DNA of 64,000 bases from Haematococcus lacustris (lineage: Eukaryota > Chlorophyta > Chlorophyceae > Chlamydomonadales > Haematococcaceae), in contig JASKMD010000012.1 of assembly GCA_030144725.1 (NCBI GenBank), positions 10,344,431 to 10,408,430 on the forward strand, in the 5' to 3' direction. The notes beneath the pieces are model-generated. The model had not been told where the DNA came from, did not search any database, and was given only the letters and a program-made list of their open reading frames with translations. This document shows, in pieces, positions 6,401 through 56,282 of this stretch; position 1 is the first letter of the stretch, and each line of letters opens with the position of its first letter. The position numbers and the translations under genes were made by a program.

Positions 6401-7664
6401 AGGGTACTGACAGCGGCAGCAGCGGAAGGGTTGTCTGGGGCGGCTGCAGGCAGGGAAAGTGGCCAGGGTCAGGGTCAGGGTCGGGGTCAGGGTCGGGGTC
6501 GGGGTCAGGGTCAGGGTCAGGGTCAGGGTCAGGGTCAGGGTCAGGGTCAGGGTCAGGGTCAGGGTCAGGGTCAGGGTCAGGGTCAGGGTCAGGGTCAGGG
6601 TCAGGGTCAGGGTCAGGGTCAGGGTCAGGGTCAGGGTCAGGGTCAGGGTCAGGGTCAGGGTCAGGGTCAGGGTCAGGGTCAGGGTCAGGGTCAGGGTCAG
6701 GGTCAGGGTCAGGGTCAAGGTCAGGGTCAGGGTCAGGGTCAGGGTCAGGGTCAGGGTCAGGGTCAGGGTCAGGGTCAGGGTCAGGGTCAGGGTCAGGGTC
6801 AGGGTCAGGGTCAGGGTCAGGGTCAGGGTCAGGGTCAGGGTCAGGGTCAGGGTCAGGGTCAGGGTCAGGGTCAGGGTCAGGGTCAGGGTCAGGGTCAGGG
6901 TCAGGGTCAGGGTCAGGGTCAGGGTCAGGGTCAGGGTCAGGGTCAGGGTCAGGGTCAGGGTCAGGGTCAGGGTCAGGGTCAGGGTCAGGGTCAGGGTCAG
7001 GGTCAGGGTCAGGGTCAGGGTCAGGGTCAGGGTCAGGGTCAGGGTCAGGGTCAGGGTCAGGGTCAGGGTCAGGGTCAGGGTCAGGGTCAGGGTCAGGGTC
7101 AGGGTCAGGGTCAGGGTCACCTCCACCCAGGAGGCCAGCTGCCTGCAGCACAAGCTCCCTGGCATTTAGTCCGAACCGCGGCGCCGCCTGCAGCTGCTCC
7201 CGTGAAGGCAAATGCCCCAACAGCCCTCCTGCATGGTTTTCCTGCTTGCAGTCTACTGCACTGCCCCCTAGCGAGGGAATAAGAGCAGGCTGCCGGGGTA
7301 GGGCAGGGGCTGGACGGATATGGATGGCCGGTGGAGGAGCGGGGTTTGTTGCTGCTGCTGCCTCTGCTGCTGCCTGACGCTGCTTCTCAAGGGAGTAAAG
7401 GGAGGCTGCTTCAGCCCTCAGAGCACGTCGGTTGCAGGCCACGGCTTCCTCCACCCGCTTGCGCTTGTTTATGCCTGGCACAGGCACAGTCAGCACCACC
7501 ACTGGTAACACTGCTAGCAACACTGTCAACACTGCCAACAATGACAGAGGGGTTGGTGCTTGAACAGACACGGCTCATGGCCCAAGGTGTTATCCACGAG
7601 GACGGTTGTTACCTGCGACGAGCGTTTGTCCGCATTGCGCAAACGCTGGAGCGCGCTCGTCCAT
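945..7664 (-). CDS. SCAF1/PHRF1-like C-terminal-domain protein
   Basis: Hand-built model of six exons: 7664-7613, 7474-7121, 6443-5503, 5189-5112, 4334-1417 and 1089-945. All junctions are GT-AG with compatible phases, and the total of 4,488 nt gives 1,495 aa and a stop. The N-terminal part has a basic KRKRVEE segment. The middle is Ala/Pro/Gln/Gly-rich low complexity with an acidic SSEDEEE patch. Near the C terminus an RS-type stretch (SRRSKRRSRSRVREE) precedes VLDPLYRAAMVTKEQYKVIV and, across the last intron, DKVMQHHKGAQSADFL. That pair of helices resembles the C-terminal domain of SCAF1 and PHRF1, proteins linked to RNA polymerase II CTD and splicing, so a nuclear RNA-processing role is inferred. 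No RING or PHD finger is seen, so SCAF1 is the closer analogue. The 5' end is the least certain part; intron 2 is almost entirely a hexamer satellite. Confidence 0.7.
6460..7120. repeat. (GGGTCA)n hexanucleotide satellite
   Basis: About 110 nearly perfect copies of a GGGTCA hexamer, with early GGGTCG variants and one GGTCAA. It fills intron 2 of the SCAF1/PHRF1-like gene. The 5' splice site GTGACC lies in the first repeat-like unit at 7120 and the acceptor CTGCCTGCAG lies just past the other end. All frames are free of stops, which creates long artificial open frames (Asp-Pro, Gly-Gln, Val-Arg repeats) that should not be read as proteins. Confidence 0.95.
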
Positions 7665-28221: not shown

Positions 28222-28467
28222 CGCGACGACCTACTTCTAGGCGACGATGAGCGGGCAGTAGCGACAATGGTAGCGGGCGTATGAACGGATTGATCTCATC
28301 ACACTGCCCGTGAAACGCCGTGAAATATCCCGCAAAAACCCCGCGACATGTTTATCGCGCGGCCTTTGTTTTTTTTTAGAGCGGTTGGCTTAGGGTACGC
28401 CAGTGATGCGCTGGGATGGGGAAGGTGGTGAGCAGCAGCCCTCGCTCCCAGCTGCTTGCTGCCTCTG

Positions 28468-28859
28468 GCAGGGGCAGGGGCAGGGGCAGGGGCAGGGGCA
28501 GGGGCAGGGGCAGGGGCAGGGGCAGGGGCAGGGGCAGGGGCAGGGGCAGGGGCAGGGGCAGGGGCAGGGGCAGGGGCAGGGGCAGGGGCAGGGGCAGGGG
28601 CAGGGGCAGGGGCAGGGGCAGGGGCAGGGGCAGGGGCAGGGGCAGGGGCAGGGGCAGGGGCAGGGGCAGGGGCAGGGGCAGGGGCAGGGGCAGGGGCAGG
28701 GGCAGGGGCAGGGGCAGGGGCAGGGGCAGGGGCAGGGGCAGGGGCAGGGGCAGGGGCAGGGGCAGGGGCAGGGGCAGGGGCAGGGGCAGGGGCAGGGGCA
28801 GGGGCAGGGGCAGGGGCAGGGGCAGGGGCAGGGGCAGGGGCAGGGGCAGGGGCAGGGGC
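28468..28859. repeat. (GGGGCA)n satellite
   Basis: About 65 perfect GGGGCA copies, 250 bp upstream of the HSPA12-like start codon. Open in all frames, producing artificial Ala-Pro, Gly-Gln, Arg-Gly and Pro-Leu open frames. Confidence 0.95.
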
Positions 28860-36283: not shown

Positions 36284-36310
36284 TGTGCTGCTGCAGGATT
36301 AATGGTTTGA
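36284..36310. repeat. 27-bp target-site duplication, left
   Basis: Identical over 27 bp to 56256-56282 (core GCTGCTGCAGGATTAATGG). It ends directly before the LINE 5' end at 36311. Flanking bases outside the 27 bp differ. Confidence 0.9.
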
Positions 36311-36397: not shown

Positions 36398-39300
36398 ATG
36401 AGCTTCGATTCACCAAAGCCGAGTTGTAACCTCCGTGGACAGACAGCAGCAATGACGGTGGACGCGCCTGCAGGTAGAAGCAGGCGGTGGCTTATCGTCT
36501 TATGCGTTGTTCTGTGCCTGTTCTGCGCTGGGCGGTGCCGAGCTGCGATCGGGACATGGTCCTTTGAGACCCCCCCGCAGCTTGAGCACCGCCCAGAAGG
36601 CTTTAAAAGCCGCGCAAACATGGCGTTGGCTATATGCCAACCTGCGGCCCTGTGCCACTACAACTGGGATTTTCCCAACAGCAATCTGCCACATACAAGC
36701 CCCGTCAAACGACGTGGTGCACTCCAACTACCAGCCTTGGCTGCTACAAGCAGGCACATCCAGCCGCCTGACACAGAATTACATGCTATACACAATGGCA
36801 TGAAGGATCACCACCACCCTACAGTCCTCGCTGCTACAGCCAGGCACAACCAGCTGTCTCACACAGAGCAGCAAACCGTCCAAGTTGACATGCCGGCTGA
36901 CAAGCTACATGCCGCTCAGCCCCACCACCACCTGCCAGCCCTGACCGCTGCAGGTTGGCATGCTCACCCATATGACACAGCGATGCAAGCTACACATGTT
37001 GACATGCAGGCTGACAAGCTACATGCAGCTCAGCCCCACCACCACCTGCCAGCCCTGACCGTTGCAGGTTGGCATGCTCACCCATATGACACAGCGATGC
37101 AAGCTACACATGTTGACATGCAGGCTGACAAGCTACATGCAGCTCAGCCCCACCACCACCTGCCAGCCCTGACCGCTGCAGGTTGGCATGCCCACCCATA
37201 TGACACAGTGATGCAAGCTACACATGTTGACATGCAGGCCGACAAGCTACATGCCGCTCAGCCCCACCACCACCTGCCAGCCCTGACCGTTGCAGGTTGG
37301 CATGACCAGCCGTATGACACAGCGATGCAAGCTACACATGTTGACATGCAGGCTGACAAGCTACATGCCGCTCAGCCCCACCACCACCTGCCAGCCCTGA
37401 CCGCTGCAGGTTGGCATGCTCACCCATATGACACAGCGATGCAAGCTACACATGTTGACATGCAGGCTGACAAGCTACATGCAGCTCAGCCCCACCACCA
37501 CCTGCCAGCCCTGACCGTTGCAGGTTGGCATGACCAGCCGTATGACACAGCGATGCAAGCTACACATGTTGACATGCAGGCTGACAAGCTACATGCCGCT
37601 CAGCCCCACCACCACCTGCCAGCCCTGACCGCTGCAGGTTGGCATGCCCACCCATATGACACAGCGATGCAAGCTACACATGTTGACATGCAGGCCGACA
37701 AGCTACATGCCGCTCAGCCCCACCACCACCTGCCAGCCCTGACCGTTGCAGGTTGGCATGACCAGCCGTATGACACAGCGATGCAAGCTACACATGTTGA
37801 CATGCAGGCTGACAAGCTACATGCCGCTCAGCCCCACCACCACCTGCCAGCCCTGACCGCTGCAAGTTGGCATGACCAGCCGTATGACACAGATATGTTA
37901 TACATACATGCTGACATGCAAGACATCCACCAACAACCATATCCTCCTCACCAACGACCACAGCCCACACACATCGGGATAATCTTAAGACAACAAGACA
38001 AACTGGTGAATGTGCTTATGCTCATTTTGATATGCACACACTTGCTTACCACTCTCTATCAACGCATGAATCACCCCCTTAAGCCAACAAGAAAGGATTC
38101 CAAACGTTGCCTCAAGAAGCACAAGAAATTACTAAGCCGTATCAGAGCAACGGTTAGAACCACATGTTACAACCTTATGACAGGGATAGACGGTACTCAA
38201 GCAGCCTCTTGTGCCCTCTGCAAGCTGGCCAACAGGTTTCACCTCTCCACACACGGCGCCAACAGCAGCCACCCTTTCACAGTCAACCAGTTCAATAGCA
38301 CGCTGCATGTTTATTGCACCTACCAGGTTGCAGTGAATAGCAATGAAACAGAAAAGACACCTTGCACCGTGGACCCCCTATCTGCCGCCCGGGCCACCTT
38401 GAACCCCATAGCTGTCGCAAGAGCTGTCTACGTGGCCTGGCTGTTACTAGCCGCTGGGGATGTTGAAGCTAATCCAGGCCCAACCATCAAGCACTTTAAG
38501 CAAGACAAAGATAGCTCGGCATGCCAGGTTTACTCCCTGAACAATGCTGCGGGACATGAATGGGTCACCATGCAAGACATAGACAATTTTTACGAGACCA
38601 GGCTCCCTCAACTAACTGACCACCTTGAGCGCGGCGCATGGCTGATGGCACGAGGCGTTGATGGCTATTCCGACGAAGTCATTGAAATGTACCTACGTAC
38701 CCATTACGGACTTACAGTACAAAGCATTGCCCAACTCAACCAACCCAGTGATTGGTCCACTGATAATCTAGGGCACCTCGCTGGCCAGTACGGCACACAC
38801 ACGTTTTTGTGCAAAAAGCCAGGCCACAGCATGGCCATGAAGTGCATGAACGGCACATGGAACTTGCTGGACTCCATGAAAACGACACCTACACCTCTCT
38901 CGCACATCCCTGCTGCAACCAAGCGGACTATGCACCAACTCTTTATCATCACGCCCAATACCCGCTCACGAGAGCAGATACGCCGATGCGAGGAAAAGGG
39001 CATCCATCACATCATCAGCCATGTGGAGCAGACAGGCGATCATGATTCCAACCCAATAGCATCCGTCCCCGCGTACACCCCGACCCACCACCCCACTCAT
39101 ATGTACATGGAAGGGCAATACGAAGAGTGTTGCCTAGTACATGCATTGAACATGGCCATGGGAAAGAAATACATAGACTACCACGCTGTCATTGACCACT
39201 GCAAGCAGTTAAAAGAGCACCTGCAACACCTTGCACAAAAAGCACGAGAAGAAGGATATGCTATCCGAACCCTCACAACCGACCACATCTATAGCGAGAA

Positions 39301-39916
39301 AGGCAAGTTTTCCACCGACACACTGAACCACTACCTGTACCGCAAATACCATGAGGTACGCACATACTTGCACCCAGCAACAACCTACCTACCAACCCAC
39401 AGTATCACACCAGAAACAATCACCACAACCATCGCAAGCACCGGCGCGACAAACACGGATGCTGTCCTCTTACTATCACACCACCATGCAACTGTCATCA
39501 AACATACGCAACATGGTTGGTATCAACTGGACTCGTTGAACCGGAGGCCAAAGCCACTTTCCACACCTAACGACTGGAAACACCTCCAAGGGAACCTGCT
39601 CACCATCTGCACTGGTAATGTGAAAAACACAAGATACATTAGGAGAGAGATCTGGATAGCGGACCCGTTGGAGGCCACCACCACATCAGCACTAGCAGCA
39701 CACTTCCAAGATCACACTGACCCGATTGATCTTACCACAGACAACACAGAGGCAAGAGAGGCCACCGACCACACAGAGATACTCGCCCCACCACTCCTAC
39801 AATTTAGTCCCTGCGTTTGTCCCTGCGTTCTACCGACCTTGTCCGATCGGGCTGAAATTTTGATAGATGGTAGTTTGCAGAAAATAAAACATATTTTTCA
39901 GATAGATTTTTTTTGA
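36398..39916 (+). CDS. LINE ORF1: 2A motif and tandem cysteine protease
   Basis: ATG start; 1,172 codons, the last ~40 of them encoded by an inserted MITE. Residues 27-50 (RRWLIVLCVVLCLFCAG) look like a signal or membrane anchor. Residues ~164-505 are nine 38-aa His-rich repeats. A second hydrophobic segment is near 536-553. Residues 688-695 read DVEANPGP, a canonical 2A ribosome-skipping motif with expected break between Gly694 and Pro695. Downstream are two Josephin-like papain-fold domains. The first has Cys709 in ACQVYSLNNA, His810 and Asp825 (WNLLDS). The second has Cys912 in ECCLVHALN, His1030 and Asp1045 (WYQLDS). A deubiquitinase-like or processing protease role is inferred. Such an ORF1 is unlike the usual RNA-binding type. 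Confidence 0.8.
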   Translation: MSFDSPKPSCNLRGQTAAMTVDAPAGRSRRWLIVLCVVLCLFCAGRCRAAIGTWSFETPPQLEHRPEGFKSRANMALAICQPAALCHYNWDFPNSNLPHTSPVKRRGALQLPALAATSRHIQPPDTELHAIHNGMKDHHHPTVLAATARHNQLSHTEQQTVQVDMPADKLHAAQPHHHLPALTAAGWHAHPYDTAMQATHVDMQADKLHAAQPHHHLPALTVAGWHAHPYDTAMQATHVDMQADKLHAAQPHHHLPALTAAGWHAHPYDTVMQATHVDMQADKLHAAQPHHHLPALTVAGWHDQPYDTAMQATHVDMQADKLHAAQPHHHLPALTAAGWHAHPYDTAMQATHVDMQADKLHAAQPHHHLPALTVAGWHDQPYDTAMQATHVDMQADKLHAAQPHHHLPALTAAGWHAHPYDTAMQATHVDMQADKLHAAQPHHHLPALTVAGWHDQPYDTAMQATHVDMQADKLHAAQPHHHLPALTAASWHDQPYDTDMLYIHADMQDIHQQPYPPHQRPQPTHIGIILRQQDKLVNVLMLILICTHLLTTLYQRMNHPLKPTRKDSKRCLKKHKKLLSRIRATVRTTCYNLMTGIDGTQAASCALCKLANRFHLSTHGANSSHPFTVNQFNSTLHVYCTYQVAVNSNETEKTPCTVDPLSAARATLNPIAVARAVYVAWLLLAAGDVEANPGPTIKHFKQDKDSSACQVYSLNNAAGHEWVTMQDIDNFYETRLPQLTDHLERGAWLMARGVDGYSDEVIEMYLRTHYGLTVQSIAQLNQPSDWSTDNLGHLAGQYGTHTFLCKKPGHSMAMKCMNGTWNLLDSMKTTPTPLSHIPAATKRTMHQLFIITPNTRSREQIRRCEEKGIHHIISHVEQTGDHDSNPIASVPAYTPTHHPTHMYMEGQYEECCLVHALNMAMGKKYIDYHAVIDHCKQLKEHLQHLAQKAREEGYAIRTLTTDHIYSEKGKFSTDTLNHYLYRKYHEVRTYLHPATTYLPTHSITPETITTTIASTGATNTDAVLLLSHHHATVIKHTQHGWYQLDSLNRRPKPLSTPNDWKHLQGNLLTICTGNVKNTRYIRREIWIADPLEATTTSALAAHFQDHTDPIDLTTDNTEAREATDHTEILAPPLLQFSPCVCPCVLPTLSDRAEILIDGSLQKIKHIFQIDFF
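36887..37912 (+). repeat. 114-bp coding tandem repeat, nine units
   Basis: Units start at 36887, 37001, 37115 and every 114 bp to 37799, each encoding 38 aa with QPHHHLPALT and GWHAHPYD. From unit 4 on, units alternate between TVAGWHDQPYD and TAAGWHAHPYD, giving a 228-bp higher-order period. Frame is kept throughout, inside ORF1. Confidence 0.95.
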
Positions 39917-40137
39917 AAAAATCAAAGGCGGCTGCGCTGTGGCCCTGGAGCGTAGGTGCAGGGATAAGTGCAGGGATAGGTTGCGGGCCACAGCGCAACA
40001 GCTTTTGGATTTTTCCAAAAATTTTTCTTAAAAAATCTGTTTTATTTTCTGAAAACTACCATCTATCAAATTTTCAGCCCGATCGGACAAGGTCGGTAGA
40101 ACGCAGGGACAAACGCAGGGACTAAATTGTAGGAGTG
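39792..40137 (+). mobile_element. 346-bp foldback MITE in ORF1
   Basis: Ends are CACTCCTACAATTTAGTCCC and its complement; the arms remain largely complementary inward (CCGATCGGGCTGAAA, TTGATAGATGG) around a GC-rich centre. A second 346-bp copy lies at 45182-45527 in the opposite orientation. The CACTC ends hint at a CACTA-type origin, but no clear 3-bp target duplication is visible. It puts a stop into ORF1 at 39914 and splits off the C-terminal part. Confidence 0.85.
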
Positions 40138-40138
40138 A

Positions 40139-40726
40139 CTGCCCGTGCCCGTGCCCGTGCCCGTGCCCGTGCCCGTGCCCGTGCCCGTGCCCGTACCCCC
40201 ACTGCCCGTGCTCGTGCCCGTGCCCGTGCCCCTGCCCGTGCCCGTGCCCGTGCCCGTGCCCGTGACCCCACTGCCCGTGACCGCCTTTGGCGCCGACAAT
40301 AACTCTACACTAGACACCAAGCGCAACACTACATTAGAAGACACCCCATTACAAGAGGAACCTGCCCGGTCGCGACAGCGCCGGGACATTCCCACCGTTA
40401 CCCTCCGCCCGCCAGTCCCCCCAGGAAAGCCGCGTACCAACCGACCCACAACGCGTGTCGATACCAACACTGACCCGTCAGCTAAGCGGGTACGAGCCAC
40501 CAAGGCACACCGCAACGACACGCACACACAAACCCTCATGTCCCAATACCTCTGCAAACCCACAACCGAAGCCCACACCACAAGGCTCAACCCCAACATA
40601 GCCGCGACACAACAAACCACGCCGGACACACTCGCGCCGATTAAGGCCGGAAGTCGCCTACGTCATTTCTTCCCGGGAGGCATACTGCAGATAGCCCCAG
40701 GAAAGGCCGACTCATCGCCGTTGTAA
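40139..40726 (+). pseudogene. ORF1 C-terminal continuation after MITE
   Basis: Open in the same phase as ORF1 immediately after the MITE. It begins with a Pro-Val repeat encoded by (CCCGTG)n and continues as a basic, Thr/Pro-rich tail ending near GKADSSPL. The end of this segment (40640-40760) recurs in reverse orientation at 58396-58530, next to another palindromic array, which marks it as the family's ORF1 end. Probably no longer translated as part of ORF1. Confidence 0.7.
40141..40264 (+). repeat. (CCCGTG)n repeat
   Basis: About 20 copies, a few with substitutions, encoding Pro-Val dipeptides in the ORF1 tail frame. Confidence 0.9.
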
Positions 40727-40785
40727 TCGTTGAAAAACTCAAAGTTGCTGCGATGTTATAACTATTTGAAAAGTTACCTAACCCT

Positions 40786-42020
40786 GTACCGGGTCCTACT
40801 GACCCGTTACAGGGTCCTAGGCCACAGGGTTCTGCCGCACGGCTACAGGGTCCTGCGACACATTCTCACAGGGTTCTGCCGCACGGCTACAGGGTTCTGC
40901 CACACTTTCTCACAGGGTTCTGCCGCACGGCTACAGGGTTTTGCGACACGTTCTCACAGGGTCCTGCCGCACGGCTACAGGGTTTTGCGACACGTTCTCA
41001 CAGGGTTTTGCCGCACGGCTACAGGGTTTTGCGACACTTTCTCACAGGGTTCTGCCGCACGGCTACAGGGTCCTGCGACACGTTCTCACAGGGTTCTGCC
41101 GCACGGCTACAGGGTCCTGCGACACTTTCTCACAGGGTTCTGCCGCACGGCTACAGGGTCCTGCGACATTTGTCTACAGGGTTCTGCCGCACGGCTACAG
41201 GGTCCTGCCACACATGGCTACAGGGTTCTGCCGCACGGCTACAGGGTCCTGCGACACTTTCTCACAGGGTTTTGCCGCACGGCTACAGGGTTTTGCGACA
41301 CGTTCTCACAGGGTTTTGCCGCACGGCTACAGGGTCCTGCGACACGTTCTCACAGGGTTTTGCCGCACGCCTACAGGGTCCTGCGACACTTTCTCACAGG
41401 GTTCTGCCGCACGGCTACAGGGTCCTGCGACACGTTCTCACAGGGTTTTGCCGCACGACTACAGGGTCCTGCCACACTTTCTCACAGGGTTCTGCCGCAC
41501 GGCTACAGGGTCCTGCGACATTTGTCTACAGGGTTCTGCCGCACGCCTACAGGGTTCTGCCACACATGGCTACAGGGTTCTGCCGCACGGCTACAGGGTC
41601 CTGCCACACATGTCTACAGGGTTCTGCCGCACGCCTACAGGGTTCTGCCACACACGGCTACAGGGTTCTGCCGCACGCCTACAGGGTCCTGCGTCACACT
41701 TCTACAGGGTTCTGCCGCACGCCTACAGGGTCCTGCCACACATGTCTACAGGGTTCTGCCGCACGGCTACAGGGTCCTGCCACACATGTCTACAGGGTTC
41801 TGCAGCACGCCTACAGGGTTCTGCCGCATGCCTACAGGGTTGTGCGACCCACGTCTACAGGGTTCTGCTGCACGCCTACAGGGTTGTGCTACCCACGTCT
41901 ACAGGGTTCTGCCGCACGCCTACAGGGTTGTGCGACACATGTCTACAGGGTTCTGCCGCACGCCTACAGGGTCCTGCCACACACGTTCACAGGGTTCTGC
42001 AGCACGTCTACAGGGTTCTA
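40786..42020 (+). repeat. Spacer array B, 44-bp units
   Basis: About 28 tandem units of 44 bp, each made of two ~22-bp halves (CAGGGTTCTGCCGCACGGCTA and CAGGGTCCTGCGACAC plus a variable tail). It starts right after the ORF1 tail with CTGTACCGGGTCC and ends at the stop of the Tnp2 gene. Because 44 is not a multiple of 3 and no unit has a plus-strand stop, three overlapping frames stay open; these are not genes. Confidence 0.9.
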
Positions 42021-45000
42021 GCTGCGGCTGAGGCTGTGCGCTGGCACAAAGAACATACGTCCGTAGCCCTCCCCGTCCTCAAAGCTGGTCACAAAGACTG
42101 TGAAGATCTTGGTGGCATCAAACATATACCAATGCTGATCTCCATAGCCCTGGTGCATGCTGCCCATGGCTGACTGCTGCGGGCGGTCCTCAATTGGTGG
42201 ATGGGGGTCAGCCTGCCGCTGTGATGCACCGGCTGCAAGCCTCTGGGACTTCCTGGTGCCACCTGTGCTGGCTGCCTCCGCTGCTGCCTGCTCCACCCCA
42301 CGCTTTGCTGACCTGTGCTGCTGTGGCCCACCTATACCGCTGGGCCCAGCAGCCCCTTCTGCATCTCCGTCTCCTGGTGGCTCTCCCCCCCCCCTGGCCT
42401 CCTGCGTTAGCCACTGCTCCAGCTCCTGCTGCTTGCTGTGGCCTGGGAACAGCCTGACCAGTTGCTGCCAAACATGAGGGGTGGGATGTAGGGCGGGTCA
42501 AGTAGATGCGGCTGACTGCTAGGCGTAGGAACACCCCAGGCAGCTTGGGGTGCTCCAAACGAACCCAGAACAGCACATGGCCAGCCCAAATGGCCCACTT
42601 GTCGTCATCGAGCCTGAACGGGATGCTGACCCAGGTGTTGTTGCGGGTTGAGGGGCGTTTGTACACACTGCTGAACACGATGGTGCCATTGCAGTCTGCT
42701 CGCTGGTAGTACCGCACTGGATACGGGGGTGCAGGGTCAGCGACCTGTAGATCCTCCTTGGCCTCCTCCTCTGCCTCCCTTGCGGTTAGGGCCTCACCGA
42801 ACACCTGCTTGACGTGCCATGGGCGCCATGGGGTGGCATCGTCGCTTTTCTGCAGATCCTGGACTGCCTTTATGCAGCCCCTCATCATGGCACCCGGGCT
42901 GTTCTGCAGTGGGCACTCTGCATTGCCCGCTCCCAGCAGCAGGGCCTGCTGCCCGTCCTGTGTCAGCTCATCCTTCAGGCGGGCCTTGTAGTCCTGCTGT
43001 GCCTCCGGCTCAGCCCGGTCAAGCAGCCTCTTGCTGGCGTTATGCCCGGCCACCCGCATGGCAATGTGGGCATCCAGCTGGGCTCCAGGAATGCCGCTGG
43101 TGGTGATGGACTTCAAGTCATGCAGGTCACGCTCGATCCAGAGCTCGCCAAACAGGTATGTCCTGCCCACATTGCTCTCTTGCATGAACAGCCTGTGCAC
43201 ACCACAGCCATGATTCCATGTTCATGCATGGTCTGCCTGCTGATGCATGCATTGTTGATTGGTAAGGTTGGCCTGCATGCTACTGTTAAAACTCTCACCT
43301 GCAAGCCGTTGTGTGGAGGTTGGGGCAGACTTGGTCAGTAGGTACAGACAGCTTGTCCCTGTTGTCGCCGTGCGCAGCTGGAAGCAGAGGATCACGGCGG
43401 CAGCGCTCCAACCTGGCTGCATAGGTCTTCAGATGTGCATAGCCTGCCGCCATCCCCGCAGGTGTGGCGCTGTTCTCCGAGCCTGAATTGGGCAGACAAA
43501 TCCTCATTGTTAGGTATATGTTAGTCATCATGCACCGGGGGATTGTTAGGTATATGTTAGTCATCATGGGACCGTGCCTGTAGATGCTTGTTTGTAATTT
43601 ACCAGGTGTCAAGTAGTGCAGCATAGCGCCCTCCAAGGCTGTCCACAACCCACGGTAGGGCTCTGGCAAAAGGTTGCCCCGCAACACGATGGGTGAGAAG
43701 TGCACATACCAGTGCTTGTAGTCCTCCATGCGCCATCCACTGCATGATGACATGGGCATTGCAGCACCCGGGCAATCATAAGCGTGTCATGACATGCACC
43801 TTGCATTGTCATCATCCTTGCCATTCAGTTGTGATATGATTATGACATACTGCACAACATGATTATGACTTACGTGCGGTTGGCAAGGTCTCCCAGGTCC
43901 CGTCCCAAGTCAGATGGGGATTGAATGGCTGCTCCACGCTTCACTATCTCACGCCGCACATCAATGTGAAGGCCATCTGCACTCATGAACCACTCCAGCT
44001 GGTGCTTCAGCAAGCCATACATGAAGCTGTGGTACACAGGCACCAGGTGGGCCAACCGGGCGTCCAGGTGTTGCAGCAGCAGGGGCAGGAGGGGCTGAGC
44101 GTGGCAGCCCACCACCCTAGGTTCGCCTTGAGACCACCCATGGATGAAGGGGGCACCTCGGTCCATGATCTGCTCGTGGCTGAACTTCATGCGCACGTCA
44201 TAGATGAGCACATACTCCTGCAGTCCGCCACCGCAAGCAAGGATGGTGTGTGCCAAGGGATCCTTGTGTCTGATTTCAATTTCACATGCTGAAGTGTGTG
44301 TCAAGTGTTACATACCTCCCGGTTGGAGCCTGGTAGGGTCTGCAGCGTTGGCAAGTCGTAGCCGAGGGGCGCCTTCTCTGTGGGGGGGTTGGGGGGCTTG
44401 CTGATGTTGCAGTTGTAGCACATCTTGAGGGCGCTGTGGCCCATGGCCCTGGTCAAAGTGGCTCTACATGCACACAATCACGCAATTCATTCCTCAATGG
44501 TTGTAATATGTTTGTGGGTGGTACATGGCAGGGTACAAGTTGTATAGGGATAGACTGGATTGGGAGGTGGTGGAATCATTTGTAGGTGCAAGCTGTTCGC
44601 CTTTGTCTCACTCACGTGGCTGGGGTATCAGCGATTGATACCACTGGGACTCCAATGATGCGGACAGGCTCAACACGGGCTGGAGCCACACCATCAACAC
44701 CTGGGCCTGGGTGTGGCTCCACTATCACACCCAGGTCACCCGGGCCCTCGATGTGCTTGCTGACTTCCTGGCAGATGGCTTTCATGTAGCCTGTCAGGTG
44801 AGACTGGTGCTTCCCTCCGTTGATGACGGCCAGCACTGAGCTGCACGCCCGCTTGCCGCACACCTCAGCCGGCACATCCAGCAGCCTCAACAGAATCACA
44901 CCCACTGACCAGGTGCCGTTCTTGCCCAGGGTCATCCAGTCAACCCCAATCATGAAGTGGGCTGTGCTGGGGGAGGTGGCCACAACCTCTGGTAGCTTGG

Positions 45001-46180
45001 GCTGCATCTCTCGCCATGCAGGGCCTGCCAAACAACAACATCATGGTATGGTGCATGTCACTGTACTAATCACCTGGCTATGCCGTCAATTCTATGCCAT
45101 GGTCAACCCATGCCTACTCACTTGCCCGGAAAGAGCCAGCAGGTGGGTCCACGCCCCGAGCTCGCCTGAACCAGGTCATCACACTCCTACAATTTAGTCC
45201 CTGCGTTTGTCCCTGCGTTCTACCGACCTTGTCCGATCGGGCTGAAAATTTGATAGATGGCAGTTTTCAGAAAATAAAACATATTTTTCAAGAAAAATAT
45301 TTGGAAAAATCCAAAAGCTGTTGCGCTGTGGCCCGCAACCTATCCCTGCACTCATCCCTGCACTCTAGCCATAGGGCCACAGCGCAGCCGCCTTTGATTT
45401 TTTCAAAATATTTTATCTGAAAAATATGTTTTATATTCTGCAAACTACCATCTATCAAAAATTCAGCCCGATCGGACAAGGTTGGTCAACACGCAGGGAC
45501 GGACGCAGGGATTAATTTGTAGGAGTGCACGTCCTTGCGCTCCATGATGTTCTTCACCACTGTGTCCCAGCCGAACAGAGACATGCTCCACCGAGGCTTC
45601 AAGGTGATCTCCTGTGGGCTCCCTGTAACCAAGCAAGGGGCAGCTTACAACATATGTATACCTCTACAAGTGTCATTGAGAATTGACCATGCCCATGTAG
45701 ACTGGTTTCACCTTTCTTCTTGTCCACATGGAAGCGAGGTGTCTCACAGTAGTAGCACTTGTCATCCTGGTGGGCGAGCCACTCAGACCTATGCATGCAT
45801 GCACATGAAGGTAACCTTGACCCCAACAAACACCATGTGTAATGCGCCATGTATGCATAGCCTAATCCACACCCTTTCCCCTGACCTCACCGTCGTATCT
45901 TCGGGTAGGCGAAGCCTGGGCAGTACTTGTTGTTGGCCTTGTTGTCCTTGCCCGCGTTGCACACATGCACCTCGTACTCATTTGCGTGCTGGACGCCCTG
46001 CAAACTCATCAGCTGGTAGAAGCTGGTGATGAGGTTGAGATCAGGCTGGTTTGCAAGTAGCCTACGGATCAGCTTCAACACCCCCTTCATCTGCTCCTTG
46101 GTCAGCCTCATGTCCAACAGCCTGCTCAGCTCGTCCATCATGTCCTTGCCTGTCAAGGGGCAGTTCCTGTAATGGCATGC
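42018..46180 (-). CDS. CACTA-type transposase (Tnp2/Transposase_21)
   Basis: Multi-exon minus-strand gene, exons approximate: 46170-45893, 45790-45712, 45624-45528 (broken by a MITE) and 45181-45130, 45026-44626, 44463-44310, 44290-43875, 43745-43605, 43480-43305, 43205-42480, 42300-42018. Landmarks in Tnp2 order: a helical N-terminal part (LTKEQMKGVLKLIRRLLANQ), DDKCYYCETPRFHVDKKKG, IGVDWMTLGKNGTWSVGVIL with a nearby KRACSSVLAV, MGHSALKMCYNCNISK, WYVHFSPIVL with YRGLWTALEGAMLHYL, and FGELWIERDLHDLKS (DUF4218-like). Stop is directly at array B and the 5' end directly at array C, which are inverted relative to each other. The transposase cuts and pastes DNA. A MITE in an exon suggests it is inactive. 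Confidence 0.7.
45182..45527 (-). mobile_element. 346-bp foldback MITE in Tnp2 gene
   Basis: Same element as 39792-40137 in opposite orientation (the AAGCTGTTGCGCTGTGGCCC arm is on the other side). It breaks a Tnp2 exon between codons for NIMERKDV and TWFRRARG. Confidence 0.85.
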
Positions 46181-46254
46181 ACAATGACAAGCAACTACTA
46201 TATTGAACAGCTCCCTACTTGTGATACTAATATCTGTTATTTCTAAGTACCTGA

Positions 46255-48680
46255 ACCCTGTAGACGTGTGCGGCAGGACCCTGTAGGCATGCGGCAGAAC
46301 CCTGTAGACTAATGCAGCAGGACCCTGTAGCCGTGCGGCAGAACCCTGTAGACATGTGTCATAGGACCCTGTAGCCGTGCGGCAGAACCCTGTAGACATG
46401 TGTCGCACAACCCTGTAGGCGTGCGGCAGAACCCTGTAGACGTGTGCGGCAGGACCCTGTAGGCATGCGGCAGAACCCTGTAGACTAATGCAGCAGGACC
46501 CTGTAGCCGTGCGGCAGAACCCTGTAGACATGTGTCGCAGGACCCTGTAGCCGTGCGGCAGAACCCTGTAGACATGTGTCGCAGAACCCTGTAGGCGTGC
46601 GGCAGAACCCTGTAGACATGTGTCGTACAACCCTGTAGGCGTGCGGCAGAACCCTGTAGACGTGTGTCGTACAACCCTGTAGCCGTGCGGCAGAACCCTG
46701 TAGACGTGTGTCGCAGGACCCTGTAGGCATGCGGCAGAACCCTGTAGACTAATGCAGCAGGACCCTGTAGCCGTGCGGCAGAACCCTGTAGACATGTGTC
46801 ATAGGACCCTGTAGGCGTGCGGCAGAACCCTGTAGACATGTGTCGCAGAACCCTGTAGGCGTGCGGCAGAACCCTGTAGACGTGGTTCGCAGGACCCTGT
46901 AGGCGTGCGGCAGAACCCTGTAGACATGTGTCGCAGAACCCTGTAGCCGTGCGGCAGAACCCTGTAGACATGTGTGGCAGGACCCTGTAGGCGTGCGGCA
47001 GAACCCTGTAGACGAGTGTCATAGGACCCTGTAGGCGTGCGGCAGAACCCTGTAGACGTGTGTCACAGGACCCTGTAGGCGTGCGGCAGAACCCTGTAGA
47101 CGTGTGTCGTAGGACCCTGTAGCCGTGCGGCAGAACCCTGTAGACATGTGTCGCAGAACCCTGTAGGCGTGCGGCAGAACCCTGTAGACGTGGGTCGCAC
47201 AACCCTGTAGGCGTGCGGCAGAACCCTGTAGACATGTGTCGCAGGACCCTGTAGGCGTGCGGCAGAACCCTGTAGACTAATGCAGCAGGACCCTGTAGGC
47301 GTGCGGCAGAACCCTGTAGACATGTGTCGCAGGACCCTGTAGGCGTGCGGCAGAACCCTGTAGACATGTGTCGCAGGACCCTGTAGGCGTGCGGCAGAAC
47401 CCTGTAAACAAACGTCGCAGGACCCTGTAGGCGTGCGGCAGAACCCTGTAGACATGTGTCGCACAACCCTGTAGGCGTGCGGCAGAACCCTGTAGACATG
47501 TGTCGCAGGACCCTGTAGGCGTGCGGCAGAACCCTGTAGACATGTGTCGCAGGACCCTGTAGGCGTGCGGCAGAACCCTGTAGACGTGGGTCGCAGGACC
47601 CTGTAGGCGTGCGGCAGAACCCTGTAGCCAAACGTCGCAGGACCCTGTAGGCGTGCGGCAGGACCCTGTAGCCAAACGTCGCAGGACCCTGTGGGTGTGC
47701 GGCAGGACCCTGTAGACAAACGTCGCAGGACCCTGTAGGCGTGCGGCAGGACCCTGTAGCCAAACGTCGCAGGACCCTGTGGGTGTGCGGCAGAACCCTG
47801 TAGACATGTGTCGCAGGACCCTGTAGGCGTGCGCCTGGACCCTTAGACAAACGTCGCAGGACCCTGTAGCCGTGCGCCAGGACCCTGTAGACAAACGTCG
47901 CAGGACCCTGTAGCCCCAAACCTGGTGGTATGGTGCCAGGACCCTGTGGGGTGTTGCCAGGACCCTGTGGGCCAGACCCTGTGGTGTGGTGCCAGAACCC
48001 TGTGGTGTGATGCCATGACCCTGTGATGCCAGGACCCTGTGGTGTGGTGCCAGAACCCTGTGGTCCAGGACCCTGTGGCTGTGCAGCAGGACCCTGTGGT
48101 GCCAGAACCCTGTGGTGTGGTGCCAGAACCCTGTGGTGAGGTGCCAGGACCCTGTGGGCAAGGACCCTGTGGTGAGGGACCAGGACCCTGTGGTTCCAGG
48201 ACCCTGTCATGTGGTACCAGGACCCTGTAAGCCAGGACCCTGTAGGTGTGCAGCAGGACCCTGTGGTGAGGTGCCAGGACCCTGTGGTGCCAGGACCCTG
48301 TGGTGAGGTGCCAGGACCCTGTGGGCCAGAACCCTGTGGTCAGGTGCCAGGACCCTGTAGGTGTGCAGCAGGACCCTGTGGTGTGGTACCAGGACCCTGT
48401 GGTGCCAGAACCCTGTGATGAGGGGCCAGGACCCTGTGAGCCAGAACCCTGTGGTGTGGTACCAGGACCCTGTGAGGAAAGGCACTCATCGTAGGACCCT
48501 GTACAGGGTCCTGGCACACATGGTCAAAAGCATCCAAACGGGGTCAACAGATCCAACCACAAGCTATGGAGGAATCCTAACATGGTTCTATCACATAGGG
48601 ATGCAAGAAATGATTAAAACATCTACACTCATCAGGTACACAGGACCCTGTACAGGGTCCTACGACCATGATGACGCTAG
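46255..48680 (-). repeat. Spacer array C
   Basis: About 37 units of the 44-bp repeat in reverse orientation to array B (CAGGACCCTGTAGGCGTGCGG, AGAACCCTGTAGACATGTGTC) up to ~47900, then shorter CAGGACCCTGTGGTG-type repeats to 48480. Near 48495 and 48645 are full palindromes GGACCCTGTACAGGGTCC. All minus-strand frames stay open by the same 44-bp effect. Confidence 0.9.
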
Positions 48681-48689
48681 GAACCTGTA

Positions 48690-49002
48690 CAGGGTCCTAG
48701 GACACGGGCCATAGCTCATCACTGGCTTAGACTTTTTACATGCCACCTACTAGGTTGGGCAGCTGTAACCACCCTTTACAACCTCTCATACTCACATTTC
48801 ATGAAAGGTCACTTTGGTCACACGGTGCCAACTCCCTTAGCCAAAATCAGGGTCTCAGCCCCACACCTGGCCCAGCAACTCGACACCGAGTGAGAATTAC
48901 ACTTTCGCCCAATAGAGTCTTGTCATCCCCTAGGTCACAGCAGCCCACATACCAAGTTTCAGACCTCAACTCTCAGGTATTTCAAGCCAGCCAGGCCTTA
49001 AT
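48690..49002 (+). other. LINE linker before ORF2
   Basis: About 310 bp, conserved in the reverse copy at 34215-34545. The ORF2 frame is open from 48931, after TAG at 48928, but contains no ATG. Confidence 0.75.
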
Positions 49003-52000
49003 TTGCACGAGTGCACTGATCCTTGTACGAGCCAACACAACAACCCCCCAACCGAACTGCCCCAAGCAACCCTCAACAGGCAACACATCACCCTCACAAC
49101 CTTCAATGTCAGAGGCCTACACAGATCTAGAAACGAAGTCCTTAACCTGGTGCACAAACAAAGTCCGGACATCTTAATCCTCACAGAAACTATGACCCAA
49201 CCCAAGAGCAACAACTCTAGCCCTGGCTGGCTGAAGAGGGTTATGCCCAACTACACCGTCCACCGTCACGAAGGCCATAGTGAGGTCCTCATTGGCATCA
49301 GACACGATCTAGCTATCCAAATGCAAGCCACCATGATGCCGCCGTGCACAGATGCGAACGTGAACACCCGATGCGTCATCCTAAACCTTCGCCAACGACA
49401 AAGCGAGGAACTCACACTCGTCGCCACGTACTGGCCGTCAGGGAACAACGACGACGCGATCCCGCTAAGGAAGAAGATGCAGGAGCACATACGGACTGCC
49501 ACTGGACAACTGCCCGGCTCACTCATCCTGGCGGGAGATATCAATGCCACGATGAAAGCAGAGGACCGCTCCGAACACACTGAATACCCACAAGACCACA
49601 TGATGAGGGAGTTCGCCACAGAGATGCGCCTGTCCGAAGCTGACTCCGGCGACCGGGCCTGGACCTACCAGCAGCCACACTGCAACAGCCGCATCGACGC
49701 CATCCTGACGCGCGATGCGAGACACGGACCTGGGCACCGCACCCATGTCGACACACAAGCGTACCTTAGTGACCACAGACCGCTCACCGCCACACTGACC
49801 ACAACCAGGCTGGGCATAGAACTAGCAGCCACACATAAACCCCTGAAACACAGCCATACCATTCTCACAACCCCAATTACCAATAATGACAGGGAAGCCT
49901 ACCGCCTGGCAGTGCAACAACCCAGCTCAGGCGCTCCACAACTACATGCACACCTGACAGCATACCTAGCTCCCATGTACACAGACGCTATCCACTTCCT
50001 GACCACACTAGACAAGGCTAACCCACAACAACCACAACGCCTAACACTAGTGGCAGGCCTCCCGGCTAGAGAAGCTGTCGACACCGCAGCCACCATGCTC
50101 ACAACGCTCCTGGAAACCTGCAGAGGAACTGCCATGCAGACATGCAACACCAAGACATTGACCAGAGGAGGCCAGCATTACCAACGCAGGAGCATGTGCA
50201 AGATCAGACTGGCACTAGGGAAAAAGCTCAAAACCACCAGAGAACTCAGCCGGAGGGCTAGAAGGTTATACAAACAAAACGGCGTCCACCCGTCTATCGA
50301 TGACCTACTCCCAGAGACAGACACGACCAACGCGGAGGTAAGGGAGGCGGTGCAAGCACGCCAGGGCGACGGTACAACCGAAAACTACGTGCAAGCCGCG
50401 CTCGCCCAGCTGACCAACTCCTACCGCGACCAAATCCACAAACTAGATGACGACGACTCCGCACTGGCCATTGCACAGGCGCGTCTCAGAATGCAACACC
50501 TCATCAGCACCCAACCCAAAAAAGCCAACAAATACATACTACGCCCTTCTCGCACCGACCACAAAGGACTGCAGGCACTAGCCGACCCCGATACCAAGAA
50601 CATCTGCACCGCCCCGGCCGACCTCAACCAAATTATCACCACCGCCTACAGACAAAAGCTCACGCCGCCGACTCCCAAAACCGGTCACTACACTAGCACA
50701 CAGACCAGAAACTATCCCTGGACCCGCCCCAAAGCCGACGACCCCTTCACGTTGCACACCTGCCAAAATGTACACTGGCTGCACACAGCCATCATGGACA
50801 AAGCAGGATTTCAAGAATGCATCAGCAAACTGTCAGGTGGCAAAGCACCTGGCCCGGACGGCATTGAAAACGAGATCATCAAGATGCTGCCATGGGAGAT
50901 GAGGGACACCATCCACCAGCTGTTTATCGTCATGTGGGCCACTGGCTGCACACCCACAGCATGGAAAGCCAGTGACACCTGCCTGCTATACAAAGACAAG
51001 GGCCAGGAAACAGACCTCAACGCCTACAGACCTGTGGGGCTGGCCAACACCATCTACAAACTCTGGACCAGCCTCATAACTAGGGCGCTGTGCGAGTATG
51101 CTGAAGCTAATGGGATGCTAAGTAACTGCCAAGCAGGCTTCCGCTCCCACCGGGACACCACACAACAGCTCCAAATGTTAGTCATGGCCCTCGAAGACGC
51201 CAACCTAGCCAAAGTAGATATATATGCGCTCCTGGTCGACTTCACTAGTGCCTTCAACACCACTTGTCAAGACAAACTGCTATGGATTATGCATGACTTA
51301 GGCTTTCCCACCGACGCTACAGATGCGGTGCGGGACCTCTACACGGGGGCAACGACACGCTTCAACACTCCGTACGGTCACACCGACCCGGTACCCGTTG
51401 ACCGGGGCACCATCCAGGGCGACTCCCTATCACCTTTCTTATTCCTCATCTACATCGAACCCCTACTGCGTTGGCTCCAAGTAGGAGCGAGGGGGTACAA
51501 ATTCACATCCGATACAAACGACAGCGCCGGGCGATTTACCATCGGCAGCATCGCCTATGCAGACGACATCGCTATCCTATGCAACTCAATCAGCAATCTA
51601 CGCTGCCAGGCCGACAAGCTCTCCGCCTACTCGGACTGGGGCCACCTCATCATATCCCACAGCAAAACCATCGCCACAGCGGCGCTCCACAAAGCGCACC
51701 AATCCGGCAGATGCAGCACCACGGCAGAAGCGGAAAAGCAAGCCCGCAGAGAACTACAAGTCGTAAAGCTACAAGGGAAGCCTGTCACCTACCTCCAACC
51801 GACCGCCCCCTTCACTTACCTAGGTGTCCTACTTACCATGACGCTCAACTGGAAACCACAACACATAGCCATGATGACACAACTCAGACAGAAGCTAGAA
51901 AGACTACGACGCTCGTTTGCCAGCGCGAGACAAGCCATCCACATCATCAAAACAGCCATCATCCCCAGTCTGGCTTACAGTTTCTGCGTGGTCCCATGCA

Positions 52001-55000
52001 CACCAGGAGATCTAGACCTCTACGACAGAGCAATCAACCAATGTGTTAAGAAAAAACTCAGACTCCCACTAGGCACAACCAATGCCGTCGTCAGGGAGGA
52101 CATCGACAAGCTCGGCCTGGGCATCAGCTCAACAGCCAAAGAGTACCATTCCAGAAACACTACAGCCCTCTTACACAGTCTCCAGTCCACAGACACCATA
52201 CATGCCCACATAACCAGAAGCATACTACACAAACAGATTACCTGGCTCTACGCTCAAGCTGCCAAGCATGGACACCGCATCCTCATTATGCTACAACACA
52301 CCCTACGCGCCAGACAACTCCTGCATGCTACCACTGCGCAACTCACTGCCACACAGGAAGGACAAGACCTCTACCCTAAGGAAACCAAACTACTTGGACA
52401 ACTCATCACACAGAATACTAGCGCCCTTCCACTTGACATAGTTAGTGCCTGCATGACGTGCCTCAAAAGCCTGGGCATCCGACATGCCACAGAGCTCCAA
52501 CACACCATCGCTGGCAGCACCTACATCATCTCAGGAAAGATGCTTAAAGAACGCTTCCACAACAAGGTCAAACAAAAACACTATATCGCCCTCAACAGAC
52601 TAACGACCATGGCGACCCAGGACAGATGCCCAACCACAACAGAAGCGAAAGACATCGCAGCCAAACGAGACACCACCTCCGACCTGCCCGCTGCGCAAAG
52701 ACTTATTAAACCATGGGCCGCGGGCTTGACGGAGCTTGCACCAACCGACGTCGAAGAAGACACAAAGCACCGCTACGCTGATATCAGGGCGTATGTGATT
52801 GCCAAGAAGCCCACATCGGGAACACAACCGCCCAGCCCGACGCACGTGACCGAACATGCAACACAACCGCCCGCAGCCCAGGAGGCCATCAAGAGCAACT
52901 CCCGGCTGCTAAGACGAGAGAACAAAGAAGCACAATCGCCCCCAACGAAGCCCACCCGACCCAAGGCGGGCACGAAACGGAACACTGAGGGCAGACAGAT
53001 CCAAACAATCCCGAAGGATATCGTGCGCATAGTAGGCCTTGACCTTCCAGGGCTCTCCAGCTGGAAGGTGGATAAAGCCTGCCGATGTAAACCCAAGGAC
53101 CTAGGCAGTATACTAGGGGCCATGTACGGCCACCAAGAGGCCATTACCAGCATAGAGGGCTGGCAATGGGACGGCATCAACAAGGAAAACTACTACAAGG
53201 TGCATTGGAAGCCCACAGTCATAGATAGATGGGCATTACCACTATGTGCAGAAGAAGGCTACACACCCACACACATAGAACCCATCAGCAGGGAAGAGGC
53301 TAAAGACGTATGCACATGTGAGCTATGCTGGCTACCAAGAGGAGACAGCCCAATGTGCCACAACTGCAAGAGGGCCTACCACCCAGCCTGCCTTGAGGAA
53401 GCCCTCCTGTCGGGACACAAGGAACCAAGCCACTGGCTGTGCCCAATATGCAAGTTTGGCAGCAACGAGTTCAAAACGACTATGCGTCTATCAGCGCAAT
53501 CGGACCTTATACGAGTTCATTGGCGCCCCACCCTCGAACCGGCACCTCTCATCACGGCACACCTGGACTACCTGGCGCGACGCAGCGACTATGAAGAGGA
53601 AAATAAGAGGATACACGAAGCTAGATACGCGCGGCCTGACACACAGCTGCCAACACACACCCGGCAGGGACTACCGGACCCGCACACCTGGCTGCCCCGG
53701 TGCACCAACCTTCACTCGAAGGCCACCTTCCACACGTACCCCATTAACCCGCAGACGGACATCGTCGGGACGGGCAGATGCGAAACCTTCCTCCAACTGC
53801 ACCCCCACATGACCACCCCCGCGATGAACGTAAGCACGGGGGAGCCCATCATGCCCAAACACAACCTAGTGCAACACGTAACGGTTCACGACGAGTCGGG
53901 TCGCACAGTAGGCCTCCTGACCAAACAGCAACACCAACACCTACACGCTTGGTTACAACACACACCACACACACGCAACCTGGCCACAGAACTGGTGGCC
54001 CTCCTAAGGAGACAAGACACACAGAGCAGCCGCCACCCCATGAGACTGGCACAGGACAGAGCCCTTACCACCTTGCACACCACACGATCCTTTACAAGTA
54101 CCGTCCAGAGGTGGGCGGACCCACTCACAGTTAGACCAGAAACTACTACCTACTGGAGCCCCGACATCAATGACACCGCCTTTGGCGCACACCACAATTG
54201 CCTACTCGTACGTCACACTGGGCTGTCCACATGGAACGTACCAGCCGATGATGCGGTGGCCCTGAAATGCGTTAACCATGCTATACACTCAGCACACCAG
54301 GAGGAGGCCATGGCCACCATCATGTTGATCCCTGGTAAAAAGGGGATCTCTTACCCCAAGTACATTGACACCTTGAGACGGTACCCAGAGTACTGCCAGC
54401 ACCTGGCCAGCATACCTCTCACCAATACCAACTGCTCCAAACTTGGCAAACACGCCACCCTCCTCGTCTACGTCATATGGAATGAGGCAGGGCAACTACT
54501 CACCACCAAAAGCAACCCGCAAGGATGGATGGCGAGCACAGCCACTGCCCTACATCCGGACCGGGAGACACACCCTTTCCATCACAGACCCAATAACCAA
54601 AGACAGCCAGCCACCCTCCCCAGTGGCCACAAACAGTACCTCCGCCTCCCGCTAGACAGGGCCCTACCTACGCCGGGGCACTCACGCAACCAACACCAGC
54701 TCACACACCACTCTACCACGCTACCACGGATGGCCATCACCGAATGGACCACTGTAGCGTACACTGACGGGAGCTGCATTAAGACATCCGAGCCAGCCCC
54801 GGCACGCGTCGGGGCGGGGGTCTATATTCCAGAAAACAACGCCCTGATTACCATTGCACTGAACGACCCAGAGAACAACACCATCAACAAAGCAGAACTC
54901 ACAGCGATACACGCGGCACTCAAAGCGGGAGCCAGACGCATCGCCACCGACAGCCTCTGCTCCCTCTATCAGATCCGCCGAGCTCTCGCTAACCCTATGT

Positions 55001-56216: not shown

Positions 56217-56255
56217 ACGCCGGTGAATACCGGCGTAGTCTTCTTCTTCTTCTTC
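56217..56255 (+). other. LINE 3' hairpin and (TTC)5 tail
   Basis: Perfect stem ACGCCGGT/ACCGGCGT with loop GAAT at 56217-56236, then TTC repeats at 56241-56255 that run into the target duplication. A 3' stem-loop plus simple-repeat tail is what a LINE RT typically recognises; recognition here is inferred. Confidence 0.75.
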
Positions 56256-56282
56256 TGTGCTGCTGCAGGATTAATGGTTTGA
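56256..56282. repeat. 27-bp target-site duplication, right
   Basis: Perfect match to 36284-36310. Confidence 0.9.

Follow-up and report, generated by a model that had tools for sequence, protein, structure and literature searches.

Does a 2A-like (StopGo) motif that lies deep inside a retrotransposon reading frame divide its product into two proteins, and what stands on either side of the division? The question is raised by a 64,000-nucleotide stretch of the Haematococcus lacustris genome (assembly GCA_030144725.1, contig JASKMD010000012.1, positions 10,344,431 to 10,408,430, forward strand), hereafter the window, in which a long interspersed nuclear element (LINE) contains an open reading frame (ORF) at 36398-39916 (1172 aa) with the sequence DVEANPGP at residues 688-695. 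A first-pass annotation, made from the letters of the window, had described this frame as ORF1 of a LINE in which the motif follows a hydrophobic leader and precedes two Josephin-like protease domains. The motif, the leader, the tandem domains and the LINE context were all found again in our analysis, and the term ORF1 had to be given up. We consider it probable that the element is a Dualen/RandI-type LINE with one giant ORF, in which an internal 2A would yield two proteins and would mark the place where N-terminal modules are exchangeable.

The motif was located in frame at nucleotides 38459-38482, exactly as annotated, and it agrees with the C-terminal D(V/I)ExNPGP consensus of 2A/StopGo peptides. 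The upstream context of 2A peptides comprises about 18-30 residues. In the window copy the residues directly before DVEANPGP are AVYVAWLLLAAG, including the hydrophobic leader WLLLAAG, and both the alignment of copies and hydropathy showed that a hydrophobic WLLLA leader is conserved upstream of the motif. The pattern D[VI]E.NPGP had a single six-frame match in the 64 kb window and none in 60 first-order Markov shuffles. A chance motif was rejected.

When the whole genome was searched with a degenerate DNA pattern, 408 exact matches to DVExNPGP and 182 to DIExNPGP were obtained, altogether 590, compared with 3 and 0 for the reversed controls. All 15 sites chosen for codon variety precede the first Josephin domain (Jos1), and two of these copies (L032, L046) are cut short afterwards. 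The matches listed include 146 sites on contigs C1-C56, and in a random sample of 16 of these every one runs straight into Jos1 (E 4e-43 or better), three of them with a stop within 217 residues. A search with the second Josephin domain (Jos2) only gave, on the same contigs, 31 hits, of which 30 are preceded on their own strand by the motif, at a distance of 565-816 nt; with the tandem Josephins as query, which itself included the motif, the exact motif was kept in 24 of 25 hits. Both sets of hits were read off the C1-C56 listings; the tandem set does not include a partial hit, C11:7688107, whose start lies past the motif. Across 13 families the leader W-L-L-x-A-x-G was constant or nearly so and all codons but that of W varied (2 to 5 per position), the free motif residue being A, V or P in these families and E, M or T elsewhere among the copies. 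The motif letters themselves are constant by choice, because 10 of the 13 families were fetched via the motif; that choice affects neither the leader nor the synonymous changes nor the Jos2 test. In L017, AADVE stands in place of AGDVE. In Haematococcus the 2A is a fixed part of the element, retained in several families that have diverged from one another, and the idea that the window copy is an isolated oddity was rejected.

The frame was tracked to a stop at the 3' end of the element in three copies (L010/L029, L021/L030, L024/L031), each read in two overlapping pieces, and the element is therefore a single-ORF LINE and not of the ORF1/ORF2 type. In the window copy the frame is interrupted by two younger insertions, 39792-40137 and about 40631-49014. 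The stop at 39916 is contributed by the first of them, an inverted repeat, and 'ORF1' was therefore rejected as a natural unit and is taken as an insertion artefact. In intact copies the order of domains is a signal-like N-terminus, repeats, the 2A, two Josephins, an APE endonuclease, reverse transcriptase, a PHD-like finger, RNase H and finally a CCHC knuckle with a PD..ExK nuclease. The 308 Mb genome contains at least 105 scored copies of the motif-Josephin region with 82-100% identity (the best 105 of 854 for this query; for the Jos2 query the best 150 of 847 were scored). For 37 of the 105 the frame from stop to stop is 3,400 aa or longer, with a maximum of 4,916; in one of them a stop interrupts the match itself. 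Twenty copies picked for long open frames were fetched, and 19 of them stay open from the motif through the fetched stretch.

All four copies checked at both ends carry target site duplications (27, 13, 14 and 15 nt) and (TCT)n tails, as expected of a retrotransposon lacking long terminal repeats. The C-terminal nuclease gave no Pfam match and no credible PDB match, and its assignment as a restriction-like endonuclease (RLE) rests for this reason on the motifs CCHC, RH, PD and ExK. In 19 aligned elements, selected for having CCHC and PD, the CCHC is followed by RH...PD...ExK with RH and E invariant and K present in 18. According to passages of PMC4640811 and PMC3636483, an APE together with a PD-(D/E)xK-type endonuclease (RLE) defines the Dualen/RandI group. 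The present element has the APE by Pfam and the RLE by motifs, as well as reverse transcriptase, RNase H and a cysteine protease by Pfam, and on its sequence it is classified as a Dualen/RandI-type LINE with one giant ORF.

According to the mechanism we propose, the ribosome would fail to form the Gly-Pro bond at NPG-P and would release a front product composed of the signal-like sequence, the tandem repeats, a second hydrophobic segment and a conserved pre-2A module. Translation would then go on into a replication protein of about 3,000 aa that starts with proline and contains both Josephins, APE, reverse transcriptase, the PHD-like finger, RNase H and CCHC/RLE. Judged from the sequence, skipping at NPG-P most likely takes place in vivo. 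The 2A of foot-and-mouth disease virus is functional in Chlamydomonas, where some fusion protein stays uncleaved (passages of PMC6952782), and algal ribosomes are therefore capable of skipping. As the likely reason for the split we infer that a front part directed to the endoplasmic reticulum (ER) or to membranes would be incompatible in one chain with a nuclear reverse transcriptase.

The Josephin pair at the start of the predicted replication protein was analyzed by profile searches and by comparison of copies. Pfam recognized Josephin (PF02099) in two stretches of the window ORF (E 5.5e-15), and the second domain alone was above the cut-off (E 3.2e-12). A 16-sequence profile matched Josephin-2 (6pgv, E 2.6e-4), aligning Q-x4-C-x2-H-x-L-N and the H...D pair; with the second domain of the window alone only E 0.099 was reached, and an NCBIfam search with the Josephins gave nothing credible. 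In 36 copies, picked for long frames or via the motif and thus not random (20 long-frame copies and the 15 codon variants included), Cys709, His810 and Asp825 of the first triad were kept in 36, 36 and 35 copies. Cys912, His1030 and Asp1045 of the second, which lie where they had been annotated, were kept in 34 copies each. Both sets agree with the Cys-His-Asp/Asn triad of Josephin peptidases. All missing residues are gaps in the truncated copies L032 or L046, so that the triads are intact wherever they are covered.

Nei-Gojobori ratios of nonsynonymous to synonymous divergence (dN/dS) in 15 pairs were, where dS could be measured, 0.07-0.42 in both Josephin domains and in the pre-2A module, with the exception of the pre-2A module in the distant pair of L033 and the window copy (0.44). 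When Jos1 and Jos2 were shifted by one base as an out-of-frame control, the values ranged from 0.65 to 4.6 and were mostly about 1. For the pre-2A module dS was unmeasurable in three of the 15 pairs, in one of them (L040/L044) since L044 is without an upstream module. Thus, Jos1, Jos2 and the pre-2A module are under purifying selection, and degenerate Josephins were rejected because the triads are intact and dN/dS is low. The first-pass annotation had proposed to look in other copies for the motif and the catalytic residues and to test for purifying selection, and both checks supported it.

Josephin and Ulp1 families act on ubiquitin or SUMO, and ataxin-3 is a Josephin deubiquitinase. Judged from family membership, the Josephins of the LINE are most likely deubiquitinases, which may shield the replication protein or its ribonucleoprotein. 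Our second choice, unlikely given the ubiquitin- or SUMO-directed nature of these families, is that the two domains form a protease which processes the polyprotein by cleaving between domains of the LINE itself. This would suit a replication protein of some 3,000 aa with many domains, and Ulp1-like proteases do occur in other LINEs (passages of PMC4640811) as well as in the relative P0122 described below.

In the databases, 17 relatives of the motif-Josephin region were found, 16 labelled Haematococcus lacustris and one Bosea. The latter (P0002, Bosea sp.) shares 87% identity with the window LINE and is probably algal DNA in a bacterial assembly. A search with the reverse transcriptase region yielded 281 proteins, 120 of them among the matches listed, from which P0083-P0136 were taken as the relatives set (54 proteins, 53 not labelled Haematococcus). 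By a pattern of this analysis, 43 of the 54 have a CCHC-like match, and [RK]PD follows in 26 of the 43. P0095 contains two 2A motifs with a Josephin start after each. In its residues 632-705 a piece of Josephin stands between the two 2As, which looks like a duplication of a unit made of the 2A and the Josephin start; a protein search with the 2A-Josephin region of P0095 returned only P0095 itself. P0122 has one motif plus a degenerate GDVHPNPGP ahead of an Ulp1 protease, P0124 has one motif and no recognised protease, and P0119 and P0085 have two Josephins as well. Josephins are widespread in this LINE group; the 2A is the rule in Haematococcus and sporadic elsewhere. Many of the listed relatives (P0095, P0122, P0124, P0088 and others) also have a PCIF1-like domain (PF12237) between PHD finger and RNase H, which Pfam did not detect in the window element. 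NPP[FYW], the catalytic motif of PCIF1, was absent from all of P0083-P0136.

The predicted front product starts in 16 of 20 copies with MS, basic residues and a hydrophobic run; three copies leave the fetched stretch and the start of L018 differs. Equivalents of the signal-like stretch in two other subfamilies have hydropathies of 2.17 and 2.29. The number of 38-aa repeats varies between closely similar copies (window, L009-L017), and the length of the array therefore changes quickly. In nine copies of the window family the front product measures 535-953 aa, and in other subfamilies in which the start was seen 1,439-1,469 aa. Pfam detected nothing in the pre-2A module of the window copy and one weak family in one of 18 copies, and a profile of this module found no convincing match in the 54 relatives (best full E 0.0017, scattered pieces). 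The first-pass annotation had spoken of a membrane/His-rich N-terminal part. The His-rich repeats and a signal-like start are indeed there, and for the membrane half of the description the copies agree only in part, as set out below. ER or membrane targeting of the front product would be consistent with its sequence.

The hydrophobic leader would also suit a membrane segment, and the motif might accordingly be kept only as part of a hydrophobic helix or a linker at the C-terminal end of the pre-2A module, with no skipping and one fused protein. This is quite improbable, since hits found with Jos2 only keep the exact StopGo consensus in 30 of 31 cases while the preceding module falls to 22-31% identity between several classes. 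Moreover, the consensus recurs behind different N-termini in P0095 (twice), P0122 (once, plus the degenerate form) and P0124 (once), and a constraint of this kind does not predict NPGP.

The 2A also coincides with a boundary in the history of the element. Several classes of pre-2A module exist, mostly 22-31% identical to one another. Upstream and downstream of the motif, L036 and L040 are 26% and 90% identical, and the window copy and L036 27% and 78%; for the window copy and L032 the relation is reversed, with 68% upstream and 39% downstream. In all three finely profiled pairs the shift in identity falls about 75 nt or less from the motif. Maximum likelihood trees of 18 copies (138 upstream and 398 downstream columns) reject each other in approximately unbiased (AU) tests with p 1.7e-6 and 9.4e-10; the 18 were taken from the 36 copies, near-identical ones and L044 and L046, which are without an upstream module, being left out. 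Among the 153 pairs, which are not independent, 69 strong changepoints were detected, 57 of them no more than about 20 residues from the 2A and the other 12 in other places. Given the mutually rejecting trees and the clustering of identity shifts at the 2A, N-terminal modules appear to have been exchanged between families there. Since the 2A would make the two halves independent proteins, front modules would be exchangeable at this point, and we infer that this is how the exchange came about. The retention of the 2A across divergent families, its coincidence with the N-terminal module boundary and the recurrence of motif plus Josephin in P0095 go beyond the first-pass annotation.

Several observations weigh against the reading of a split element with exchangeable front modules. 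L026, listed with a frame of 4,105 aa, hits a stop 558 residues past the motif, so a long frame does not equal an intact element. The first Josephin domain alone stays under the Pfam cut-off (E 0.0063). D(V/I)ExNPGP occurs in only three of the 53 listed relatives not labelled Haematococcus, and among 11 relatives in which a Josephin (domain E < 1e-3) is preceded by 100 residues or more, some of which may be incomplete, only P0095 has a 2A. The second hydrophobic segment of the front product has a hydropathy of 1.01-2.13 in 18 copies; seven reach the threshold of 1.6, and 11 are below it. In many copies the segment is thus a weak one, and it is chiefly the signal-like start that speaks for a membrane reading. 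N-terminal signal sequences can themselves inhibit a downstream 2A (PMC2978324). Skipping may therefore be partial, and split and fused protein could plausibly occur together, as reported for 2A signal sequences (passages of PMC4981915). A second boundary exists between Jos1 and Jos2, where L035 and L043 are 38% identical in Jos1 and 80% in Jos2, and exchange is therefore not limited to the 2A.

Finally, at 54 of the 57 changepoints near the 2A the downstream side is the more similar one, in part possibly because the upstream side could evolve faster. That the discordance is altogether such a rate effect, a faster N-terminal module with no exchange, is very unlikely, since synonymous divergence, which speaks against an effect of protein rate, is discordant too (dS in the pre-2A module and Jos1 0.22 vs 0.95 for window/L034 and 1.20 vs 0.35 for L034/L045), the window copy and L032 show the reverse relation, and the topologies conflict both ways with AU p below 1e-5.

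Beyond module exchange as such, it is possible, although we would not yet favour it, that the 2A is an evolutionary docking point. It would uncouple an ER-directed front protein from the replication protein and let lineages repeatedly swap whole N-terminal modules on a constant Josephin/APE/RT/RLE backbone (RT, reverse transcriptase). The element would then be a LINE laid out like a picornavirus polyprotein, with an interchangeable front cassette whose product might function in membranes or between cells.

The features of the window element are compiled in Table 1. The last seven nucleotides (GGTTTGA) of the 5' target site duplication may be part of the 5' end of the element, since the same letters occupy this place in L010 and L024. 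The arms of the inverted-repeat insertion start with CACTCCTACAATTTAG, and a similar sequence was seen by eye just upstream of the 2A in L044. The 8.4-kb insertion has inverted arms of about 1 kb made of a 44-bp satellite, and by eye L032 shows the same insertion start. Elsewhere in the window there are hexamer arrays of CAGGGT (x109, 6464-7119), GGGGAG (x86, 15068-15581) and GGCAGG (x66, 28467-28859).

Table 1. Coordinates of the Dualen/RandI-type LINE and its insertions in the window, in 5' to 3' order
Feature	Position	Strand	Basis
5' target site duplication, 27 nt	36284..36310	.	identical 27-nt copies on both flanks
N-terminal product to ...NPG, 694 aa (predicted)	36398..38479	+	ORF
Signal-peptide-like hydrophobic stretch WLIVLCVVLCLFCAG after RSRR	36488..36532	+	hydropathy 2.87 over 15 aa
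His-rich tandem repeats, 114 bp (38 aa), 8.9 copies	36884..37892	+	repeat analysis
Second hydrophobic segment then basic stretch, possible transmembrane segment	38003..38059	+	hydropathy 2.02; copy alignment
Conserved pre-2A module, few invariant residues incl. N-x-T	38087..38437	+	alignment of 18 copies
2A-like StopGo motif WLLLAAGDVEANPG-P, break predicted before final P	38438..38482	+	ORF reading, genome-wide pattern counts, copy comparison
Josephin-like domain 1 (C709, H810, D825)	38480..39070, end approximate	+	Pfam, alignment
Josephin-like domain 2 (Q907, C912, H915, H1030, D1045)	39104..39712, end approximate	+	PF02099 E 3.2e-12; Josephin-2 6pgv profile E 2.6e-4
Younger inverted-repeat insertion, 128-nt arms, 91%	39792..40137	.	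truncates ORF in window copy
LINE ORF continuation: PV-rich repeat and linker	40138..40630	+	same protein in L005, L011
Second younger insertion, ~8.4 kb, inverted 44-bp satellite arms	40631..49014, ends approximate	.	junction vs L011
Remainder of LINE ORF to stop	49015..56151	+	ORF 49003-56151, Pfam
APE endonuclease PF03372	49099..49776	+	Pfam E 1e-11
Reverse transcriptase PF00078	51016..51828	+	Pfam E 5.5e-22
PHD-like finger PF00628	53317..53451	+	Pfam, under cut-off
RNase H PF00075	54751..55149	+	Pfam E 9.3e-17
CCHC knuckle and RPD...ExK putative restriction-like endonuclease (RLE)	55504..56148	+	motifs read directly
3' (TCT)n tail	56239..56255	+	similar tail in L029-L031
3' target site duplication	56256..56282	.	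matches 5' copy

If our reading is true, an internal 2A is added to the Dualen/RandI LINEs, in a green alga whose genome holds 590 copies of the motif. It would show a route from a giant single-ORF LINE to two proteins, link deubiquitinase-like domains to the replication half and offer a natural experiment on module exchange at a ribosome-skipping site. The many natural algal 2A variants are candidate co-expression tools for Chlamydomonas and Haematococcus.

2A peptides in LINEs and the Dualen elements are known already. The combination of an internal 2A in a Dualen-type LINE with tandem Josephins and module exchange was found in none of the literature matches listed, which were open-licence papers, the main 2A-LINE and Dualen papers lying outside this scope; as far as this literature goes, the combination is new. 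No LINE with a Josephin appeared among the matches listed either.

Compared with known systems, the element resembles Josephin-2 (6pgv) in Q-x4-C-x2-H-x-L-N and in an H...D pair 15 residues apart. It differs from Josephin deubiquitinases in that the two domains stand in tandem inside a retrotransposon with low identity, the first being more divergent and, in the window's class of copies, without the Q at -5. In picornavirus polyproteins, too, a 2A parts upstream (capsid) from downstream replication proteins (passages of PMC4981915). No capsid homology was found in the LINE and Pfam matched nothing noteworthy in its pre-2A module, so that the likeness is one of analogy only. D(V/I)ExNPGP in a LINE ORF is shared with the 2A-bearing LINEs of trypanosomes (L1Tc) and of sea urchin and other animals (passages of PMC4981915). 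In contrast to these, the 2A of the window LINE lies about 690 residues into the frame, before a protease pair and in an element with both APE and RLE. The 2As of APE-type LINE clades treated by Odon et al. in 2013 are said to lie near the N-terminus. For Dualen, the abstract of 2005 reportedly names a cysteine protease. With the Dualen/RandI elements of green algae, as described in passages of the papers cited, the window LINE shares APE plus a PD-(D/E)xK-type endonuclease (PMC4640811, PMC3636483), RNase H (PMC4640811) and a short-repeat 3' tail, comparable to (ATT)n or (CTTT)n of the Chlamydomonas short interspersed nuclear elements paired with RandI (PMC3747384). Three features were absent from descriptions of such elements among the literature matches listed: an internal 2A after a long front product (535-1,469 aa in copies whose start was seen), tandem Josephins and N-terminal modules that appear exchangeable.

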